Below, piece by piece: positions 1 to 17,479 of a DNA stretch of 23,227 bases. Positions within the stretch are counted from its first letter, which is position 1, and the number at the start of each line of letters is the position of its first letter. Both the position numbers and the translations under genes were made by a program. This stretch comes from a virus, in IMG/VR virus record IMGVR_UViG_3300020205_000652, positions 1-23,227 of that record; one strand, 5' to 3'. Below the pieces are notes generated by a model that did not search any database, was not told the origin of the DNA, and worked only from the letters and a program-made list of their open reading frames with translations.

Positions 1-711
1 CCAAAGGCTGACATCATTGTTTCCACCAATGTCTTTCAGCACACCAAAGACATTCATGCCTTCTTGCGTGGCATCCAAAAGCATCTAGATGGCGTGTGGA
101 TCCTTGAGTTTCCCTACGCTTTGGAAACCATTCTCACTGGCCAGTTTGATCAATTTTACCACGAGCACTATTACTACTGGCTGCTTTCTCCGTTGGAAGA
201 ATTGTTCAAGCAATACGGTCTCAAGATCATCCATGCGCTTCCCGTGGACATCCATGGCGGCACCATGCGGCTATGGATGACAAACAAAGAACCAAGTGCT
301 CCTGCCGTTGATCTATCTTGCTACACGAAGCTTGAACAAGAGGCCGTAGCGCAGGCACCAGTTCTCTTTAGTGATGCTATCGCCATTGTTGGTGATGAAT
401 TCATTCATAAATTGACAAGTGGTGAATGGGGCAAGGTTTGCTTCTTCGGGGCAGCAGCTAAGGGCTGCGTGTTTCTCAACGCCCTCAATCTTAATATTCA
501 CACTGTTGGCGAAATGGTGGTCATTGACGACACGCCAGAAAAGCAAGGTCTCTTCATCCCAGGCGCTGGCTTTCAAGTGGTAGATAGGAGCGTGCTGCCA
601 GAGTACGACACTATCATCATCCTTGCTCACAACTTCAGGCATCACATTGCGGAATCACTGGCTACACATTGGAATGGTCAAATTGTTTCCCTTCTGCCGA
701 TAGTGCAATGA
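1..711 (+). CDS. Sugar C-methyltransferase, C-terminal part (partial at window edge)
   Basis: The frame is open from base 1 and ends at TGA 709-711, so the 5' part lies outside the window. A TTG at 64 is only an internal codon, because related-looking sequence continues upstream of it. The visible 236 residues match the catalytic and C-terminal parts of the family that adds a methyl group to keto-deoxysugar nucleotides (Methyltransf_13/14 type, as in TylC3 or EvaC). They show VFQHTKD, then FDQFYHEHYYYW, whose YHEH carries the Tyr/His pair typical of the active site, then IHGGTMRLWM, the family's HGGSxR signature. The C-terminal 100 residues form a Rossmann-like tail (VCFFGAAAKG). The N-terminal zinc-binding part is not visible. 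The gene overlaps the next by ATGA, so translation is probably coupled. An inferred role is making a branched methylated sugar for a glycan. The exact substrate cannot be told. Confidence 0.85.
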   Translation, partial: PKADIIVSTNVFQHTKDIHAFLRGIQKHLDGVWILEFPYALETILTGQFDQFYHEHYYYWLLSPLEELFKQYGLKIIHALPVDIHGGTMRLWMTNKEPSAPAVDLSCYTKLEQEAVAQAPVLFSDAIAIVGDEFIHKLTSGEWGKVCFFGAAAKGCVFLNALNLNIHTVGEMVVIDDTPEKQGLFIPGAGFQVVDRSVLPEYDTIIILAHNFRHHIAESLATHWNGQIVSLLPIVQ

Positions 712-1322
712 AACAGCGATTTGTCATCTACCACCTTTATCAAGCGCACCACTGGGAGCAAATCTTTAGCGAGCAAATGGGCTTGCTGATGCTCAGTGGG
801 CTTTTTGATAATGCAGAAGTGATTGTTTCAGTGAATGGTTCTTCCCCATTGCCGAAGGGACCATATAAACAAGTGTATCGAGAGGATGGCTTCTCCGAGA
901 AGCCTTCTCTTTTGATGGCACGGCACTATGCCGAATCCTTCCCTGATTCACAAATCCTTTACTTCCATAGCAAAGGCATTTCCCATCCCACTAAGAACCA
1001 GGATGATTGGCGGATGATGATGCAACATTTCATCCTGATGGACTGGCGGCGGGCTTGCTTGCTGCTTGACGATCATGACGTGGTAGGAGTAAACTGGCGC
1101 TCATTTCCTGTGGAGCATTCTTCTGGCAACTACTGGTGGGCCAATGCTTCCCATTTGCTGAAGCTGGATCCAGCCTTCTTGAATGACCATGACCGCATGA
1201 GCCAAGAATTTTGGATTGGCTCCATTCCCGCCAAAGTGCATAATATGCACGAAACTGGGCTTGACCACTACAATCAAGCCTGCCCCTCCTCCTCCTATTG
1301 CTCACGCTATTTCCAACCATGA
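708..1322 (+). CDS. Glycosyltransferase-like protein
   Basis: 204 residues. I chose ATG 708 because it overlaps the previous stop as ATGA; an in-frame ATG at 669 would overlap the preceding gene by more than 40 bases. Recognisable features are YFHSKG at residues 85-90, an aromatic-rich GNYWWA at 140-145 and QEFWIG at about 166-171, followed by a C-terminal HNMHETGLDHYN. The combination of a HSKG block, a GN(Y/F)WWA block and an (E)FWI block recurs in short glycosyltransferase-like proteins of polysaccharide clusters and some phages. No classical DxD metal site is obvious, so the activity is inferred from this pattern and from the two flanking sugar-type methyltransferases. There is no signal peptide or membrane segment, so it would act in the cytoplasm. 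It could also be a non-catalytic relative. Confidence 0.6.
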   Translation: MKQRFVIYHLYQAHHWEQIFSEQMGLLMLSGLFDNAEVIVSVNGSSPLPKGPYKQVYREDGFSEKPSLLMARHYAESFPDSQILYFHSKGISHPTKNQDDWRMMMQHFILMDWRRACLLLDDHDVVGVNWRSFPVEHSSGNYWWANASHLLKLDPAFLNDHDRMSQEFWIGSIPAKVHNMHETGLDHYNQACPSSSYCSRYFQP

Positions 1323-1933
1323 CTCTCCGCGAAATCATTGCCAAGTACGACATCAATGGCCACGAGAAGGATGGTGGCACGGACAAAGATACCTTTCACT
1401 CCTACATTGAGCTTTACGAGGAACTTTTAGCTCCCTTTGTTGACAAGGCGATCACGCTGGTGGAAATTGGCATTCAATATGGTGGGTCGATGCTGCTGTG
1501 GCAAGACTATCTACCTAAGGCTCAATTTGTCTTTGTGGACAACGTGAACAGCATCCATCCTAAAATTCTTGATCACCTGGATCCAAGTCGGACCTCCCTC
1601 TTGTTCCAAGATGCCTACAGTGAAATCAGCGCAAATGCTGTAAGTCGCATTGCGGATTCCGGGCTTCCCGGTGACATCGACTTCATCATTGATGATGGCC
1701 CGCACACGCTGCAAAGTCAGATTGACTTCCTGCGCCTTTACCTTCCATTGCTGAACAAAGGAGGCATTGCCTTGATTGAAGATGTGCAAGATGTGTACTG
1801 GTTTGCATATCTAGAGTGGGAAGTGGAAAACGCAGGTAGCGAGTTTGCTCGCGAGTTTACTTTTGAACGAGTGGATCTTCGTCATGTCAAAGGACGCTAC
1901 GATGATTTAGTGTTTGTCGTTAAAAGGCTTTGA
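1319..1933 (+). CDS. Class I SAM-dependent methyltransferase
   Basis: 204 residues. The start at ATG 1319 overlaps the upstream stop (ATGA); a TTG 21 bases upstream is in frame but less likely. The SAM-binding motif I is EIGIQYGGS at residues 49-57, preceded by a hydrophobic strand. IDFIIDDGPHT at about 120-130 supplies the acidic pair and the histidine typical of the Methyltransf_24, TylF and MycE-like O-methyltransferases that act on sugars and polyketide glycosides. GGIALIEDVQ follows as a later strand. In those relatives DD and H bind a metal and assist catalysis; that is family knowledge, not shown here. With the upstream C-methyltransferase and glycosyltransferase-like gene it forms a compact glycan-modifying set. 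The acceptor is unknown. Confidence 0.85.
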   Translation: MTLREIIAKYDINGHEKDGGTDKDTFHSYIELYEELLAPFVDKAITLVEIGIQYGGSMLLWQDYLPKAQFVFVDNVNSIHPKILDHLDPSRTSLLFQDAYSEISANAVSRIADSGLPGDIDFIIDDGPHTLQSQIDFLRLYLPLLNKGGIALIEDVQDVYWFAYLEWEVENAGSEFAREFTFERVDLRHVKGRYDDLVFVVKRL

Positions 1934-1935
1934 CC

Positions 1936-2214
1936 ATGGAAGATCGTGAGGACGCAGCGGCTCCCAAAAGCAAGAAAGCCCAGCAAGCTAAAATTAGGAA
2001 GGTTTTGAAGGAATTCAAAGCTGGCACTCTCAAGAGCAGCAGCGGCGAGAAGATCACTGATCGTCGCCGTGCCATTGCCATTGCCTTGTCAGAAGCTGGC
2101 ATGAGCATGCAAGGTAAGAGCGACGCCTATTGGGATAGCTACGTCAGCGTGATGGTAGGCGAAGAGGAGGAGGAGGGAATGGAAGAGGAGGAGGAAGACT
2201 CCCCAAAGGGCTGA
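1936..2214 (+). CDS. DUF6496-like lysine-rich small protein; zero-frame product of a likely -1 frameshift
   Basis: 92 residues from ATG 1936, which lies 2 bases after the upstream stop; a TTG at 1930 is also in frame but would overlap that gene. Residues about 20-56 are basic and end in RRRAIAIALSEAG, the hallmark of the DUF6496 family, often written as a K/R-rich helix followed by QAIAIALSEAG. Its biochemical function is unknown. The C-terminus is a run of glutamates (residues about 76-90). The last codons before TGA 2212-2214 contain the slippery heptamer C CCA AAG at 2202-2208, and the -1 frame is open beyond it for another 354 bases. A longer 208-residue fusion is therefore predicted. The protein is charge-polarised, with a basic N-terminal half and an acidic tail, which could suit nucleic-acid or scaffold interactions, but that is speculation. 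Confidence 0.8.
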   Translation: MEDREDAAAPKSKKAQQAKIRKVLKEFKAGTLKSSSGEKITDRRRAIAIALSEAGMSMQGKSDAYWDSYVSVMVGEEEEEGMEEEEEDSPKG

Positions 2215-2264
2215 GGGGAGACGCTGAATCATTCTCCCCTCCATCGTCTGTACGGGCTGCAGCG
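2202..2264 (+). other. Predicted programmed -1 ribosomal frameshift signal
   Basis: The heptamer CCCAAAG at 2202-2208 is in X XXY YYZ phase with the gene starting at 1936 (codons CCA AAG). A 4-base spacer follows, then a perfect 9-bp stem: GAGGGGAGA at 2213-2221 pairs with TCTCCCCTC at 2233-2241 around an 11-base loop. Loop bases CGCTG at 2222-2226 can also pair with CAGCG at 2260-2264, giving a possible H-type pseudoknot. The zero-frame stop lies at 2212-2214, just past the slip site. The -1 frame has no ATG, GTG or TTG before 2349, although its sequence looks like protein from the slip site onward. These are the classical parts of a -1 frameshift site. Use of the site is inferred, not shown. 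Confidence 0.72.
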
Positions 2265-2561
2265 CGTCGTGGGCTTGAACTACGCAAGAAGTATGGCAAA
2301 GGTGGTTTAACCACCCAGGAGGCCGGGAAACAGGGCATTGGCAGTGGCGTGGCTCGCGCTACTTCCCTGGCCAATGGGGAAAGCGTGAGTTATGAGACTA
2401 TCAAGCGCATGGCTGCATTCTTCTCTCGGCACGAAAAGAATAAAAGTGGCGGAGAAGATGATGCTGGTTTCATAGCCTGGGCGTTATGGGGATCTGATGC
2501 CGGTAGGGCTTGGGCAAATCGTGTGATTAGGATGGTTGAAAAGCGACAGTCCAATGAGTGA
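2208..2561 (+). CDS. Frameshift-extension frame: conserved phage domain without its own start codon
   Basis: Read in the -1 frame from 2208, this is 117 residues ending at TGA 2559-2561. Joined to the upstream 91 codons it makes a 208-residue protein. It begins GLRGDAESFSPPSSVRAAAR and continues with RGLELRKKYGKGG. Further on are GVARATSLANGE, ETIKRMAAFFSRHEK and AGFIAWALWGSDAGRAWANRVI. I recall the pattern (VR..A.RGLE, then ..RM..FF.RHE.., then G.(I/V)AW.LWG.(D)AGR.WA) as a small domain of unknown function recurring in phage head-region proteins. The first usable start, GTG 2349, would remove the VRAAARRGLELRKKYGKGG part and has no Shine-Dalgarno at a proper distance (CAGGAGG lies 26 bases upstream). 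Translation by frameshifting is therefore the better explanation. A truncated GTG-initiated product remains possible. Confidence 0.7.
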   Translation, partial: GLRGDAESFSPPSSVRAAARRGLELRKKYGKGGLTTQEAGKQGIGSGVARATSLANGESVSYETIKRMAAFFSRHEKNKSGGEDDAGFIAWALWGSDAGRAWANRVIRMVEKRQSNE

Positions 2562-2868
2562 ATACGTTCACATCGTCGAAAAGGAAGACGAGGATGGCAT
2601 TGGAGTGCTGAAGGCACTAGCCGTGCTTTCTTCCAACGAGCATAGGAATACCAGCGAATGGCATTTGGTCGAGAAGCAATGCTTCAAGAATGGTCGCCTC
2701 GACGAAACTCACATCTTTTGCGAGAGCGTTTACAGGCAGCCCGACCCATACTTTGAGCCAGCAAAGATGCTGGTGTTTGAAGTGCAGGCAATTGCCAAGG
2801 CACTCATAATGGAGAGCGTAGAAGATCAGTTGCGCGAAATCCGCGAAGATGATGAAGACGACGATTAA
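2554..2868 (+). CDS. Hypothetical acidic phage protein
   Basis: 104 residues from ATG 2554, overlapping the end of the preceding frame by 8 bases (stop at 2559-2561). A TTG at 2536 is in frame but deeper in the neighbouring gene. I recognise no family. Residues 1-50 are mixed, the middle contains KQCFKNGRLDETHIFCESVY, and the C-terminus is a helix ending in an acidic run (REDDEDDD). There is no signal peptide or membrane segment. It is the last plus-strand gene before the antisense regulator and its stop overlaps the 3' end of that gene by 4 bases. It is most likely a small accessory protein of the head operon, but no function can be assigned. Confidence 0.65.
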   Translation: MSEYVHIVEKEDEDGIGVLKALAVLSSNEHRNTSEWHLVEKQCFKNGRLDETHIFCESVYRQPDPYFEPAKMLVFEVQAIAKALIMESVEDQLREIREDDEDDD

Positions 2869-3146
2869 TGCCTTGCTGCATTGACCACAAAGTTGGGCAT
2901 GCCCAAGAGCCATAAAATTGAAATGCCGTGCAATCCACTTAACACGCGGATCTGAGCGCAGTCAGGCGCGAGAACACCACGCTCCATCCTGGAGTAGGTG
3001 CTTTGGCTGATATTCAGCTCCTCTGCCACGTCACACTGTTTTAGTCCAGACTGAAGCCGAGCCTCTCTAATCCTTGATGCAATTTCACGCCTTGCCTCTT
3101 TGCAGGCAATGGATGGCACTGTAAACATTGTGGTGGTCGGTCTCAT
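2865..3146 (-). CDS. XRE-family (Cro/CI-type) helix-turn-helix regulator
   Basis: The only convincing minus-strand gene in the window. From ATG 3146 it is 93 residues. In-frame starts also exist at 3230, 3179 and 3128, and none has a strong Shine-Dalgarno, so the start is uncertain. The core is a textbook XRE domain: REIASRIREARLQSG, then LKQCDVAEELNISQSTYSRMERG (residues about 35-57) with the turn and the recognition-helix QSTYSRMERG, then a C-terminal helical part ending in ISILWLLGM. Such proteins dimerise on short inverted or direct repeats and usually repress. It lies tail-to-tail with the 2554-2868 gene (4-base overlap) and divergent from the head genes starting at 3247, so it may control them or itself. 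A lone antisense regulator inside a structural operon is unusual. Confidence 0.85.
   Translation of the reverse strand: MRPTTTMFTVPSIACKEARREIASRIREARLQSGLKQCDVAEELNISQSTYSRMERGVLAPDCAQIRVLSGLHGISILWLLGMPNFVVNAARH
3119..3128 (+). repeat. Copy 1 of a 10-bp direct repeat, CTGTAAACAT
   Basis: The same 10-mer recurs at 3239-3248. This copy lies inside the 5' part of the XRE gene and, on the minus strand, reads as an in-frame ATG TTT ACA. The spacing of 120 bases around the divergent region makes it a candidate binding site for the XRE protein. The role is inferred only from position and repetition. Confidence 0.4.
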
Positions 3147-3246
3147 GGAAGAATAGTCCCGTAAGTGTAATACCCACATTCCGCATCCATAGTCTGATTT
3201 GACTGGTTGAATAGCTGCAATGTAGCGCATTCGTTAGCCTGTAAAC
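3147..3246. promoter_or_regulatory. Divergent control region between the XRE gene and the head operon
   Basis: This 100-base stretch separates the likely starts of the two divergent genes and should hold promoters for both, though no consensus sigma70 pair is clear. On the plus strand TTGACT at 3199-3204 could be a -35 box, but no good -10 follows at 16-18 bases. On the minus strand TATTAC lies at 3167-3172. There is an imperfect 13-bp inverted repeat, GCTGCA-A-TGTAGC, at 3214-3226 (5 of 6 base pairs match). The second copy of CTGTAAACAT begins at 3239 and overlaps the ATG at 3247. If the XRE gene instead starts at 3230, most of this region would be coding. Confidence 0.4.
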
Positions 3247-3248
3247 AT
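3239..3248 (+). repeat. Copy 2 of the 10-bp direct repeat, overlapping the head-gene start codon
   Basis: CTGTAAACAT here runs into the ATG at 3247, so a protein bound to it would cover the translation start and the end of any promoter. It is identical to copy 1 at 3119-3128. Confidence 0.4.
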
Positions 3249-4440
3249 GGATTCACTCAATTGTTTCCGTTACGACGTATCGGCCATCCAGAACTACGAG
3301 TTCACGGATGAAGGATATTTGCGCGTAAAAGCGCGGATTGCCCGCACAGGCATTCAGTCGTACACGGATGCAAATGGTGGTATCCGCTTGGAGTACAGAC
3401 CGGAAGAAGAAGTGGCCGCTAGCACGGCCTTGGACAGCTTCCGGGAAAAGTGCGTGACAAGGGAGCATCCCCCTGCCCTCCTAGACGCATCCAACACAAA
3501 GGACTATGCAATTGGTTTCACCAGTGCAGATGTCTCGTATTCCGAAGGCTTTGTTGAATCCACCTTGACCGTAACCGACAAAGAAACCATTGATGAAATC
3601 ATGCGCGGCAACGTTCGTGAAGTCTCATGTGGTTACAAAGTTGATTACTCTCCTGAGCCCGGAATCACTTCTGACGGCCAACAGTACGATGGTATTCAGA
3701 AAAACATTCGTGGCAATCATGTGGCGATTGTCAACAGAGCTAGGGGTGGGGCGCAAGTTCGCCTCATGCTTGATTCAGCGGATGCCGCTGTCAACGATTT
3801 AATCACCCACTCACAAGGAGCAGTTATGTCTGCGAACATTGCGTTCGACGGCGTTTCCTTTGAGGCTGATCCGGCCCTAGCTGCCGCGATCTCTGCTGAA
3901 CGCGATGACGCAAAAGGCAGCTACGCCGATATGAAGCGCCAGTATGAAGATGCCATGGCTGAAGCTTCCAAGATGAAGGAAGAAATGGATGCCATGGAAA
4001 AGGAAATGAAGGGCAAGTGTGACTCCGCTGAGGGTCGCGCTGATGCTCTTTCCGAAGAGAATGCAGCCCTCAAGAGCGATCTTGAAGCTGCCAAGCAAAT
4101 CAATGTGGACAGCCTTGTTGAAGAGCGCATTGCGCTGATCGACAAAGCTCGCCCTTCCCTTGATTCCACCTTTGATTTCGCTGGCAAGTCTGTCCGTGAA
4201 ATCATGGAAGCCTCCATCAAGGCCGTTCGTGCTGATGCTGATCTGTCGGATCGCTCCGATGATTACGTTACTGCCATGTTCGACACCTTGGCTGAAACTG
4301 CCGCCCGTGACGATTCCGGCACGAGCGAACTGCGTAAAGCCGTTGCTTCCATCGCCTCCCCCATGTCTGCACCTTCGTCCTATATGGAGAAGCTGCAAAA
4401 CGCATGGAAAACTCCCCTCTCCGTCTCTAAGGAGCGCTGA
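3247..4440 (+). CDS. Head maturation protease-scaffold fusion (DUF2213-type)
   Basis: 397 residues from ATG 3247. Residues about 1-190 have the DUF2213 prohead-protease layout: TREHPPALLD with His74, then REVSCGY with Ser127, then a YDGIQ...IRGNHVAIVNRARGGAQVRL block with His158. By analogy with HK97-type proteases, His74 and Ser127 are the likely catalytic pair; this is inferred from motif position. Residues about 215-290 are a highly charged coiled coil (KMKEEMDAMEKEMKGK), typical of scaffolds, followed by a helical capsid-binding tail. The protease would cleave the scaffold and capsid during prohead maturation. An in-frame internal start at Met194 (base 3826) with a perfect Shine-Dalgarno predicts separate production of the scaffold part. 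The gene stands directly before the cement and capsid genes, as in other siphophages. Confidence 0.88.
   Translation: MDSLNCFRYDVSAIQNYEFTDEGYLRVKARIARTGIQSYTDANGGIRLEYRPEEEVAASTALDSFREKCVTREHPPALLDASNTKDYAIGFTSADVSYSEGFVESTLTVTDKETIDEIMRGNVREVSCGYKVDYSPEPGITSDGQQYDGIQKNIRGNHVAIVNRARGGAQVRLMLDSADAAVNDLITHSQGAVMSANIAFDGVSFEADPALAAAISAERDDAKGSYADMKRQYEDAMAEASKMKEEMDAMEKEMKGKCDSAEGRADALSEENAALKSDLEAAKQINVDSLVEERIALIDKARPSLDSTFDFAGKSVREIMEASIKAVRADADLSDRSDDYVTAMFDTLAETAARDDSGTSELRKAVASIASPMSAPSSYMEKLQNAWKTPLSVSKER
3815..3820 (+). promoter_or_regulatory. Internal ribosome binding site for nested scaffold gene
   Basis: AAGGAG at 3815-3820, then 5 bases, then ATG 3826, which is in frame with the surrounding protease gene (codon 194). 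It is among the best Shine-Dalgarno sequences in the window and has no role unless translation starts inside the gene. Confidence 0.7.
3826..4440 (+). CDS. Nested scaffold protein (internal in-frame start)
   Basis: 204 residues, identical to the C-terminal half of the protease-scaffold protein, beginning MSANIAFDGVSFEADPALAA. The start is supported by AAGGAG at 5 bases distance and by its place exactly at the boundary between the protease domain and the coiled-coil scaffold. This copies the lambda C/Nu3 arrangement, in which a protease-scaffold fusion and an excess of free scaffold come from one frame. The coiled coil (about residues 22-95 of this product) would drive prohead assembly, and the C-terminal part probably contacts the capsid protein. 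Free scaffold would be made in larger amounts than the fusion and be degraded by it. The arrangement is inferred from sequence only. Confidence 0.68.
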   Translation: MSANIAFDGVSFEADPALAAAISAERDDAKGSYADMKRQYEDAMAEASKMKEEMDAMEKEMKGKCDSAEGRADALSEENAALKSDLEAAKQINVDSLVEERIALIDKARPSLDSTFDFAGKSVREIMEASIKAVRADADLSDRSDDYVTAMFDTLAETAARDDSGTSELRKAVASIASPMSAPSSYMEKLQNAWKTPLSVSKER

Positions 4441-4443
4441 TCC

Positions 4444-5004
4444 ATGGCTGTTACTTTCTCTGCCTCGGGGACTGCCTCTGTTGGTGGCGTGCAACAAGCT
4501 TATGCTTTTACGCACGATCGCTTCCACGAAGGTCAACTCTCTGACATCCGCGACCACACGATTGGCACCTACATCAACGAAACTGCCGTTGTGCAGCCCT
4601 TCGGTGGTGTGCAAGTGTATAACACTGCTGGTACTGTTGCCAACTCTGCTACTACCATTTCTGGCGCTAGCGACACTGTTCTTGGCCTGAATGTTCTCAC
4701 CTATGTGGACGAAACTGCACTGAACGCTGATGGGCGTCCTGGTGTGAAAGTCCAGCAAGTGGTGAACGTCGCCAACGAAGGTGCTGTTGCCGTCTATGTG
4801 ACTGGTAGTGTCACCCCTGCCTCCATTGTCCGTGTGCTTTATAGCGCTAGCGGCACTGGCAAGGCTGGTCAATTCAGCCATGCTTTCGCTTCGGGCAGGA
4901 CTGTGCGTCTGTCCAATGCTCGCTACCTGTCCTCTACCACTGGTAGTGGCCTGGCAGTGCTTGAGCTGAACGGCCCGAGCTTCACCCTCTCCGCCGATTC
5001 TTGA
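4444..5004 (+). CDS. Head decoration / structural cement protein (gp24-like)
   Basis: 186 residues from ATG 4444, with AAGGAG at 4429-4434 inside the end of the upstream gene. The protein is rich in Gly, Ala, Ser, Thr and Val with few lysines and almost no predicted helix, as expected for a beta-rich capsid cement. An opening HEGQLSDIRDHTIGTYINE block is followed by GLNVLTYVDET, PGVKVQQVVNVANEGAVAVYV and a C-terminal barrel-like segment. This matches the layout of the structural cement family related to P22-type gp24 and DUF2190 proteins. The position between scaffold and major capsid protein supports a decoration or cement role on the outside of the head. The family assignment is by pattern, so a related trimeric decoration protein is also possible. 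Confidence 0.72.
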   Translation: MAVTFSASGTASVGGVQQAYAFTHDRFHEGQLSDIRDHTIGTYINETAVVQPFGGVQVYNTAGTVANSATTISGASDTVLGLNVLTYVDETALNADGRPGVKVQQVVNVANEGAVAVYVTGSVTPASIVRVLYSASGTGKAGQFSHAFASGRTVRLSNARYLSSTTGSGLAVLELNGPSFTLSADS

Positions 5005-5017
5005 TAGGAGCACCCTC

Positions 5018-5932
5018 ATGACCGATTTTCGCATGGATACGGCGGGTCTGTTTCTTGAGCGTCAGCTTGAGTTCATCCGCCCTCAGATATTTGAGACTCA
5101 GTACGCTGACATCAAATATCCCACCATTCTGCCTGTGACTAGCGAAGCTGGTCCTGGCGCTCAAACCTTCACCTATCGGATCATGGATTCGACTGGTGAG
5201 TTCCGCCTGCTTGCTGACGCTGCTGCCGACCTCCCCCGTGCTGACATCAGCCAAGTGGAGAAGAGCATCAGCATCCGCTCCTTCGGTGGTTCCTTCGGCT
5301 ACACCGTTCAGGAACTGCGTGCTGCTCAAATGGCAAACATTGCTCTTGAGCAACGTCGTGGTGCTGCTGTACGTCGCGCCTATGAAGAGAAGGTGGAAAG
5401 CGTTGCGCTGTTTGGTGAAAGCACCGTTGGCCTGTCTGGTTTCTTCAACAACTCCACCGTGGACATTGTTGCTGCTGATAAGTGGTTCTCCACCGTTAGC
5501 ATCACTGCCCAGGAAATGCTTGAACTGCTGAACTATGGCGTTACTGCCATCATCAGCGCTTCCAAGATGAAGGAGCAGCCTGACACCATCCTGCTTGGTT
5601 ACGACGACTACAACAAGATTTCGACCACCCGCAACTCCGATTCTTCGGACGTGACCGTGCTCGAATACTTCCTGCGTACCAACCCCTACATCCGTAATGT
5701 TGAGCCCATCAACCAACTGACCAAGGGGAACAACGCTGGTCGTCTGAACACTAGCCGCATGGTGGTCTACAAGCGCGATCCTGAGAAGGTGCAACTGCAC
5801 ATTCCTCAGCCGCTTGAACTGTTCCCGCCCCAACAGCGTGGTCTGGAGTTCATTGTCCCCGCTCATGCCCGTCTGGGCGGTGTGGCACTGTACTACCCCA
5901 AGAGCGTCATCTACGTTCAAGCTTCTTCTTGA
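5018..5932 (+). CDS. Major capsid protein (DUF2184-type, HK97 fold expected)
   Basis: 304 residues from ATG 5018, with AGGAG at 5006-5010 and a 7-base spacer, a strong site suited to a highly made protein. The N-terminus (FLERQLEFIRPQIFETQYADIKYPTILPV) and the following FTYRIMDSTGEFRLLADAAADLPRADI are typical of DUF2184 capsid proteins. So are SFGYTVQELRAAQMA, YEEKVESVALFGES, LLGYDDYN and the ending RLGGVALYYPKSVIYV. In DUF2184 proteins the HK97 fold is known from the family; here it is inferred. Length is normal for the family. It directly follows protease-scaffold and cement genes. Expression is probably high, given the ribosome site and the GC-ending codons (CTG, GTC) in runs. Confidence 0.9.
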   Translation: MTDFRMDTAGLFLERQLEFIRPQIFETQYADIKYPTILPVTSEAGPGAQTFTYRIMDSTGEFRLLADAAADLPRADISQVEKSISIRSFGGSFGYTVQELRAAQMANIALEQRRGAAVRRAYEEKVESVALFGESTVGLSGFFNNSTVDIVAADKWFSTVSITAQEMLELLNYGVTAIISASKMKEQPDTILLGYDDYNKISTTRNSDSSDVTVLEYFLRTNPYIRNVEPINQLTKGNNAGRLNTSRMVVYKRDPEKVQLHIPQPLELFPPQQRGLEFIVPAHARLGGVALYYPKSVIYVQASS

Positions 5933-8618: not shown

Positions 8619-8857
8619 TGCAAATCGACTACTTAAAAAGCGACGATGGCCGAGTGCATGCCATCAACTGCTCCTCTTCCGAAGGCGCCCTTGACATCGG
8701 CATATTGTGTTTGATTGCCTGCACTGAAAGTACCATTAGAATTACAGACGAACATCATCGTTTCATTGTTGAAGTGCCAAAGGAGTTTCGCTCTAGCAGC
8801 GAGCGCGTGAAGGCCTTCAACGCTTCTCTTACCATCCTGTCCCATGAGCAAGTATAG
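8618..8857 (+). CDS. Small hypothetical tail-region protein
   Basis: 79 residues from ATG 8618, sharing one base with the previous stop (TAATG), and overlapping the next gene start (8844) by 14 bases. The middle contains a hydrophobic, cysteine-bearing stretch (ALDIGILCLIACTES) but is too short and mixed to be called a membrane segment. The ends are charged. I recognise no family. Its place just before the tail assembly chaperone suggests a tail assembly accessory function, but that is only context. Confidence 0.55.
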   Translation: MQIDYLKSDDGRVHAINCSSSEGALDIGILCLIACTESTIRITDEHHRFIVEVPKEFRSSSERVKAFNASLTILSHEQV

Positions 8858-9389
8858 TTTCCTGCTTCAGTCCAAGGAAGCCGAGTATTTTGCACTTACA
8901 GAGCATCTTCGCTTGAAGAAGCATGGCGGCTGGTTGGTGGCAGAAGCCATCGAGCAGGAAGAGATCAGCAAGGTGCAAAGCCAAGCTACCATTCGTGCCG
9001 TGCAACTGGCAAAGCGTATTGCCACTGCCAAGGGCATTGAGCTGGATGAAGCCTTTGCGCTGCTGCAAGGTGGCACTGACCTTGGCGAGATGGAACTGCT
9101 TAGCGACTTCACTGAGGAGACGCTGGGCATGATCAGCAGCGGCGGCAGCATTGAAACCAGCAATGCTCGCATGGTGACGGCCTTTGTTCGTTGCCGTGGT
9201 GAAGGCTTTATTGATGGCCAATGGCAAGCCGTTGACGACTGGTCCATTGAAGACACCAAGACCATGGGACGGCCCGTGATCGCCAAGGCCATGGAATTCA
9301 TTGCGTCTGAGCAAGAGCAGGAGGCCAGCGAAGCGAACGCAGCAAAAAAAGCCCCGCAGAAGACGAAGGAAGTGTTGCCGAACGCCTAG
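8844..9389 (+). CDS. Tail assembly chaperone (lambda gpG-like), zero-frame product
   Basis: 181 residues from ATG 8844, overlapping the previous gene by 14 bases. It is largely helical and acidic toward the end, with AEAIEQEEISKVQSQATIRAVQLAKRIATAKG in the first third and a middle read as FVRCRGEGFIDGQWQAVDDWSIEDTKTMG. The C-terminus is rich in Glu, Ala and Lys (QEQEASEANAAKKAP). The last part holds the slippery run A AAA AAA at 9344-9350, and the -1 frame continues to 9817, the classical two-product chaperone arrangement known from lambda G/GT. The product would bind the tape measure and prevent its aggregation before tube polymerisation. Sequence identity to lambda G is not evident; the call rests on frameshift, size and place before the tape measure. 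Confidence 0.85.
   Translation: MSKYSFLLQSKEAEYFALTEHLRLKKHGGWLVAEAIEQEEISKVQSQATIRAVQLAKRIATAKGIELDEAFALLQGGTDLGEMELLSDFTEETLGMISSGGSIETSNARMVTAFVRCRGEGFIDGQWQAVDDWSIEDTKTMGRPVIAKAMEFIASEQEQEASEANAAKKAPQKTKEVLPNA
9344..9350 (+). other. Programmed -1 frameshift heptamer of the tail chaperone
   Basis: Seven A residues in the phase A AAA AAA (codons AAA AAA of the zero frame at 9345-9350), followed by GCC. A -1 slip puts the ribosome into a frame open to 9817 that has no internal stop and joins smoothly (AERLEKQAKAFLKGLVKWDD). I see no strong stem close downstream; poly-A heptamers can work without one. This matches the expected conserved frameshift of tail assembly chaperones. Confidence 0.88.
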
Positions 9390-9817
9390 AGAAGCAAGCC
9401 AAGGCCTTTCTCAAGGGCTTGGTGAAATGGGATGACATTCACTTTCGTCTGAATTCTTGTAGCTACAACGATGAACGCTGGTCTGCTAAAAACTTTGGCA
9501 GCCAGCGAGTGGCTGATGTAAATGCTGCATTGAGTTGGATTGAAAAGCATGATGTGGCAAGGTACAACCTTGAGAGCATTTCCATTGCAAAACTTGGTTC
9601 CTTTGTGGCTGCATCCCTTGGTGGCAAAAATACTAAGGTGTCGCCGCAGGACTTCTTGCCGTTTGACACGCGCAAGATTCGCACTGAACATGGCATCACT
9701 GACAAGAGCATAGAAGTGTTGCGTCGTTTGATGAAAACACAGGCGATGGATGGCAGGGTGATTGGTTTGCTTGCTGAAGAATTGAAAAGCGCATCATCGC
9801 GTAGTAATGACGAATAG
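9350..9817 (+). CDS. Tail assembly chaperone extension (lambda gpT-like), made by -1 frameshift
   Basis: The -1 frame from 9350 gives 155 residues after the 169 shared codons, a fusion of about 324 residues. It reads PAEDEGSVAERLEKQAKAFLKG then LVKWDDIHFRLNSCSYNDERWSAKNFG. It ends with an S-rich tail (ELKSASSRSNDE). A TTG at 9419 starts a 132-residue frame but is unlikely to be a separate gene because the fusion sequence continues upstream of it without a break. In lambda-like phages the extended form (GT) links the tape measure to tail-tube subunits. This is family knowledge. The 3' end lies 35 bases before the tape measure start. Confidence 0.82.
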   Translation, partial: SPAEDEGSVAERLEKQAKAFLKGLVKWDDIHFRLNSCSYNDERWSAKNFGSQRVADVNAALSWIEKHDVARYNLESISIAKLGSFVAASLGGKNTKVSPQDFLPFDTRKIRTEHGITDKSIEVLRRLMKTQAMDGRVIGLLAEELKSASSRSNDE

Positions 9818-16762: not shown

Positions 16763-17479
16763 ATGACACTCAGCACCTTCGCTACTTCCATTACTGCCGA
16801 GCAATCAGCAGAAATTCGTCGGCTATCAGAGCAGGCTTTCCCAAAGGAAGCTTGTGGTTTCATTCGCGCTGATGGCACAATTAGCGAATGCACCAATCAA
16901 AGCACTATTGAAGATCAATTCATTATTGCCGCTAGTGATTACGATGATGATGCCTTGGCTGTTTGGCATAGTCATGCTAATCTCGCTCGTTTCAGCGCAG
17001 CAGACATCAAAGCATGCAAGCAACTTGGCCTGCCTTTTGTCATGTGGGATTGTGGCAGTTCACAACTCTTCTTTCTCAGTGCAAGTCAAGACATAGGCTT
17101 AATTGGTCGTCCATGGAACTATGGCATCTACGATTGCTATGCAGCAGTGCGTGATTGGTACTATCAACAATTTGGCTGGGAGCTTGGTGATTATGACCGC
17201 CAGTATGAAGGCGAATGGTCCACTCGTGGCTTCACGCATTTTGAAGACAATTTCAAGGCTGAAGGCTTCTTGCAACTTGCACCAAATGAGCCCGTGCAAC
17301 GTGGCGACGCCATCTTATTTCGCATTAGGAATGATGTCACTGCTAATCATGTGGCCGTGATAGAGGATCCAAGTGCTAACATGTTATTTCAGCAGTTAGT
17401 AGGACGACTGTCAGGGTTGTCTCCCTATTCGTCTTACTTCCGAGAGAATACCACCAAGATCCTGAGGAGAACCGTTTAA
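16763..17479 (+). CDS. K: Tail tip peptidase, lambda gpK-like (JAMM plus NlpC/P60)
   Basis: 238 residues from ATG 16763. The N-terminal half is a JAMM (Mov34/MPN) metallopeptidase: Glu29, then HSH at residues 69-71, Ser78 and Asp81 in HSHANLARFSAAD, giving the H-x-H-x7-S-x2-D motif. The C-terminal half is NlpC/P60: YDCYAAVRDWY with catalytic Cys125, and RGDAILFRIRNDVTANHVAVIED with His196. Such proteins cut the peptidoglycan peptide stem or process tail proteins during entry and assembly. Both active-site sets are intact, so activity is likely, but the substrate is inferred. It overlaps the next gene by one base (TAATG). Length matches lambda gpK, 199-240 residues. Confidence 0.93.
   Translation: MTLSTFATSITAEQSAEIRRLSEQAFPKEACGFIRADGTISECTNQSTIEDQFIIAASDYDDDALAVWHSHANLARFSAADIKACKQLGLPFVMWDCGSSQLFFLSASQDIGLIGRPWNYGIYDCYAAVRDWYYQQFGWELGDYDRQYEGEWSTRGFTHFEDNFKAEGFLQLAPNEPVQRGDAILFRIRNDVTANHVAVIEDPSANMLFQQLVGRLSGLSPYSSYFRENTTKILRRTV

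Follow-up and report, generated by a model that had tools for sequence, protein, structure and literature searches.

We analyzed a 23,227-base virus record (IMGVR_UViG_3300020205_000652, positions 1 to 23,227), hereafter the window, in which two overlapping reading frames of the head operon meet at a candidate slip site (Table 1). The order of genes is methyltransferase-like genes, the candidate frameshift gene, a small gene, and a leftward HTH-like gene, followed by a DUF2213 head maturation protease, a cement protein, and the major capsid protein. This order agrees with that of Synechococcus phage S-CBS4 around gp016-gp024, and the capsid regions of the two are 79.5% identical; on these grounds the host of the window virus is probably a cyanobacterium. 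The virus family that carries the gene probably infects aquatic cyanobacteria. We note that the methyltransferase genes adjoining the head genes (window 1-1933; a PF08484 C-methyltransferase C-terminal domain and an RMNT_CmcI/Methyltransf_24-like protein) possibly serve glycan modification; the matching place in S-CBS4 holds glycosyltransferases and a methyltransferase. The HTH repressor-like ORF (2865-3230, minus strand) runs leftward within the rightward head operon, and the counterpart position in S-CBS4 is occupied by the leftward transcriptional repressor gp021.

Table 1. Features of the candidate frameshift gene and its neighbors, in window coordinates.
Feature	Position	Strand	Basis
Zero-frame ORF, DUF6496 protein with acidic tail, 92 aa (short product)	1936..2214	+	PF20106, E 2e-7
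Candidate slip heptamer C_CCA_AAG	2202..2208	+	Sequence; heptamer kept in homologous loci
Zero-frame stop TGA	2212..2214	+	Sequence; position kept in relatives
5' arm of putative stimulatory stem; conserved part 2214-2221	2213..2221	+	RNA folding, conservation
3' arm of putative stimulatory stem; conserved part 2233-2240	2233..2241	+	RNA folding, conservation
Proposed pseudoknot helix 2222-2226/2260-2264	2222..2264	+	Sequence only; conservation does not support
-1 frame extension, phrog_2859-type head module, 117 codons after the shift (predicted long product, 208 aa)	2208..2561	+	phrog_2859, E 3e-18; pN/pS 0.11
Downstream gene, homologue of S-CBS4 gp020, overlaps end of -1 frame	2554..2868	+	Homology
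DUF2213 head maturation protease (context)	3247..4440	+	Domain/profile match
Phage_cement capsid decoration protein (context)	4444..5004	+	Domain match
Major capsid protein (context)	5018..5932	+	Domain/profile match

The zero-frame codons at the slip site read TCC CCA AAG GGC TGA, with the heptamer in X XXY YYZ phase and the ORF ending one codon further on. The zero-frame product scores 31.7 bits against DUF6496 (PF20106), above the Pfam gathering cut-off of 24. The -1 frame is open up to the TGA at 2559-2561, its earliest ATG, GTG, or TTG is a GTG at 2349, and the 117-residue module that it encodes matches phrog_2859. The predicted fusion has 91 + 117 = 208 residues. A sequence-only reading of the window had described these elements, namely the in-phase CCCAAAG with a stop just after it, a -1 frame open to 2561 and protein-like from the slip site with no start before 2349, a DUF6496-type zero frame, and a fusion of 208 residues, and all of them held up on inspection.

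Across 7,170 codon positions, the window contains 13 in-phase X_XXY_YYZ heptamers, a count in which the slip site figures twice (through the overlapping AAAGGGC). Apart from the slip site, just one of them combines an open -1 frame with a position close to a gene end: A_AAA_AAA at 9344, near the end of ORF 8844-9389 in a classical tail-chaperone pair (8844-9817); there the -1 frame is open to 9817 and a 1893-aa tape-measure-like ORF comes next. Together with the site at 2202, this would give the window two -1 frameshift genes. CCCAAAG also occurs in phase at 16840, inside ORF 16763-17479 and far from the gene end, probably by chance. A chance origin of the slip site at 2202 is ruled out by the conservation of the arrangement in relatives, described below.

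Using only the -1 protein as query, a homology search yielded 80 viral loci, and the window and S-CBS4 brought the set examined to 82. The upstream sequence and the module stood in -1 relation in 57 of these, and the other 25 comprised 21 loci with both parts in one frame, two truncated at a contig end, and two with an extra upstream indel (L022 and L069), both of which kept the heptamer. Every one of the 57 -1-arranged loci carried an X_XXA_AAG heptamer immediately 5' of the zero-frame stop, at a distance of 10 nt from heptamer start to stop (7 nt in one locus), and only three kinds were seen: AAAAAAG, GGGAAAG, and CCCAAAG. We also ran a pattern scan over viral contigs in which AAAG, the stop region, and the 5' arm of the stem were specified and the triplet before AAAG was left free. 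That triplet was a homopolymer at 168/168 sites and at 101/101 non-redundant sites, where it was AAA in 66, GGG in 31, and CCC in 4. An apparent TTTAAAG site proved to be a scanning artefact in a fused gene and was discarded. On a tree of the domain the triplet changed at least 18 times, a count that recombination may inflate. These switches alter the zero-frame residue among Lys, Gly, and Pro, which have only the codon form XXA in common. The same three heptamers were the most efficient of 64 in a systematic study in E. coli, where CCCAAAG with a strong stimulator gave 54% frameshifting, a value for E. coli and not for the presumed cyanobacterial host (PMC4066793).

This pattern bears on two alternatives. 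Some relatives are continuous, as would be expected if a truly continuous gene had been split by faulty sequencing or assembly or by a frameshift mutation of recent origin; however, approximately 96 non-redundant sequences from independent metagenomes, one cultured phage, and one contig of a Rhodobiaceae-labelled MAG share the arrangement, and the continuous relatives lack the heptamer. Conservation has thus already refuted this explanation, and we assign it negligible probability. The longer product might instead arise from transcriptional slippage, for which AAAAAAG offers a run of six A. GGGAAAG and CCCAAAG, however, have runs of only three, occupy the same position, and interconvert with AAAAAAG on the tree, and the phasing rule that the heptamer obeys belongs, like the stop and the stem, to ribosomal slipping. 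We therefore consider transcriptional slippage highly improbable.

To gauge selection on the -1 frame, we used the 30 codons after the stem, ahead of the first start codon in the window. Pairwise differences at -1-frame codon positions 1, 2, and 3 numbered 20,383, 7,007, and 70,391, and pN/pS was 0.11; the -1 frame is under purifying selection ahead of any start codon. In seven loci a -1-frame stop lies directly 5' of the heptamer, so that the -1 ORF begins at the slip site. A rival view is that there are two separate genes, the second translated in the -1 frame either from an internal start of its own or by ribosomes reinitiating past the zero-frame stop. S-CBS4, a cultured phage with A_AAA_AAG, the stop, and the stem all present, is annotated in this way (gp018 and gp019, separate hypothetical proteins), and the module begins with ATG in distant relatives such as Limnohabitans phage DC31. 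A conserved start is nonetheless absent: 65 of 97 non-redundant loci lack ATG, GTG, and TTG over the stretch of the -1 frame between its opening and 39 nt past the slip, and the starts that are available fall at varying places inside the domain, cutting off the conserved LRGDAESFxPP, just as the GTG assigned to gp019 truncates the conserved N-terminal end of the module. The codon that overlaps the stop varies (CTG, CTA, TTA, or GTG) and hence is not a conserved start, and two genes would leave the heptamer unexplained. We regard the two-gene arrangement as very unlikely.

The earlier reading had also proposed a perfect 9-bp stem and a pseudoknot. Folding of a 76-nt stretch of the window returned the 9-bp stem as the minimum free energy (MFE) structure, although its stability was not unusual against dinucleotide shuffles of that stretch (z -0.68). 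The stem itself stood, except for its outermost pair, 2213-2241, which is possible only in TGA variants; the conserved helix is 2214-2221/2233-2240, and the gap from the heptamer is 4 nt to the 9-bp stem and 5 nt to the conserved helix. RNAalifold predicted the identical stem from 36 frameshift sequences, in which the Gly wobble base covaries with the first base of a Ser/Ala codon (A-U 20, C-G 6, U-G 6, mismatch 4). We judged the shuffle score uninformative and used in its place a synonymous-recoding null (window codon usage, stop-bearing codon kept, Arg limited to AGR). Frameshift loci had a stem stronger than this null (mean MFE z -2.1, n=95), whereas in fused loci the stem was not stronger than expected (mean z -0.5, n=6). 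There are exceptions in both directions: the stem is missing from the relative L048, and the fused relative L013 retains a strong one.

Two further stimulators were considered and rejected. The pseudoknot did not survive comparison: loop CGCTG at 2222-2226 is complementary to CAGCG at 2260-2264 in the window, but 20 of 36 relatives cannot form one of the five pairs and convincing covariation is absent. An upstream Shine-Dalgarno-like element of the kind found in dnaX is not consistent here (48/97 loci), and acidic Glu runs yield motifs of this sort anyway.

An in-phase heptamer, a short-spaced downstream stem, and conservation of the signal and both frames across relatives were all found, and the unvarying place of a highly efficient heptamer whose first triplet varies, the stop directly behind it, the selected stem, selection on the -1 frame, and the in-frame fusions (see below) bear out the programmed -1 frameshifting originally suggested. 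We conclude that a canonical programmed -1 ribosomal frameshift very probably operates at 2202-2208, as judged from sequence comparison. Most ribosomes would make the DUF6496 protein and terminate at 2212. A fraction would be held up by the stem approximately 5 nt past the heptamer, slip from CCA-AAG to CCC-AAA, and read on in the -1 frame, adding the 117-residue module. The likely purpose would be a limited, set share of DUF6496 protein carrying a head-assembly module. We infer that the slip is ribosomal, and likewise its frequency and its role in head assembly; the "fixed ratio" of fusion to short protein in the earlier reading is a supposition of the same kind.

Comparison with known systems places the mechanism as canonical and the gene family as apparently new. 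As in lambda gpG/gpGT and its conserved relatives (Xu, Hendrix and Duda 2004, cited in PMC3711429), a conserved -1 slip close to the 3' terminus of a small morphogenesis gene gives some of the protein an additional C-terminal domain; unlike gpG/gpGT, this family sits in the head operon before the protease, and the domains are unrelated. Tail assembly chaperone G/GT genes are recognized by a position before the tape measure gene and by gpG/gpT homology, neither of which applies to the DUF6496 gene. The capsid frameshifts of T7/T3, A2, and PSA likewise extend a head-operon protein to make two forms; there, the major capsid protein is extended, often with Ig-like domains, and PSA uses +1 (PMC5009743). 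Here, by contrast, the zero frame encodes a DUF6496 protein, the capsid gene is a separate one at 5018-5932, and the module gained is one otherwise found inside proteases, portals, and capsid proteins. The A_AAA_AAG signals of E. coli IS3-family elements and dnaX (PMC4066793; PMC3711429) share the heptamer class and a downstream structure with this site, which differs in being a phage gene, probably read by cyanobacterial ribosomes. A search of the literature on DUF6496, S-CBS4 frameshifting, phage heptamers, and frameshift surveys, in which subscription journals were thinly covered, found no account of this site.

The sequence-only reading had asked whether relatives share the heptamer, stem, and frame arrangement, as they do, and would have given way if they encoded one uninterrupted gene. 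Uninterrupted genes occur only in a minority (approximately three lineages), without heptamer and stop; seven such loci (L009, L013, L015, L025, L026, L033, L066) have DUF6496 and the module in one frame and neither signal element. Since heptamer and stop are missing together, these genes support the fusion product rather than refute it. The domain tree requires three changes, in one direction or the other, between frameshift and plain fusion.

The phrog_2859 domain to which the module is homologous forms an in-frame part of prohead proteases, XkdF, portal, and capsid proteins; here, only the frameshift leads into it. It precedes Peptidase_S78_2 in Limnohabitans phage DC31, lies inside the HGTV-1 prohead protease and in a Vibrio phage protein with a weak DUF2213 match, and is N-terminal in the S-CBS1 capsid polypeptide; in Pseudomonas phage PaBG it stands alone, outside a head operon. 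A structure model of an in-frame homologue (pLDDT 87, pTM 0.60) matched no solved structure by fold or sequence, and no NCBIfam family was found; predicted viral structures named prohead protease, XkdF, and portal share the fold of the module. In Vibrio phage vB_VpP_1, DUF6496 directly precedes the portal gene. The presence of the module in head proteins of other phages, together with this position of DUF6496, leads us to infer a role in head assembly, in which the frameshift determines what proportion of subunits bears the module. We tentatively propose, with somewhat less than even confidence, that the slip site controls head-assembly stoichiometry by placing the module on a set minority of DUF6496 subunits, in place of the covalent joining to the prohead protease that other phages employ.

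A rival for this role, though not for the mechanism, is that the frameshift serves mainly as a damper on the amount of the -1 module rather than to make the DUF6496 fusion, with an interchangeable upstream part. Three loci (L031, L053, L072) have an upstream frame of only ~25-35 residues without DUF6496, and two (L029/L030) have a further domain between DUF6496 and the slip site (L029, 2219-2725); heptamer, stop, and stem persist in all five, which favors a damper. The great majority of loci nevertheless keep DUF6496, and the in-frame fusions too retain DUF6496 with the module, so we consider a damper unlikely but worth weighing.

The frameshift signal is kept in approximately 100 distinct relatives, of which the known isolate is annotated as two unrelated genes. 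The frameshift would correct the annotation of S-CBS4 gp018/gp019 and, likewise, of many environmental genomes, and would place a widely conserved phage gene family among the few known frameshift genes other than the tail chaperone. If the stoichiometry proposal is true, hundreds of environmental phage genomes would contain a head-operon equivalent of lambda G/GT, missed there because annotation splits it. The family also offers a natural experiment: most lineages connect the same two domains through the frameshift, approximately three by simple fusion, and the reason for favoring a frameshift ratio over a fusion can be tested directly in a cultivated host-phage pair. The Rhodobiaceae-labelled MAG contig (L288, NYTN01000090.1) has an A-run followed by G and a TAG at 548-564, with the module, 71% identical, in the -1 frame; it represents either a misbinned phage contig or a host outside the cyanobacteria.
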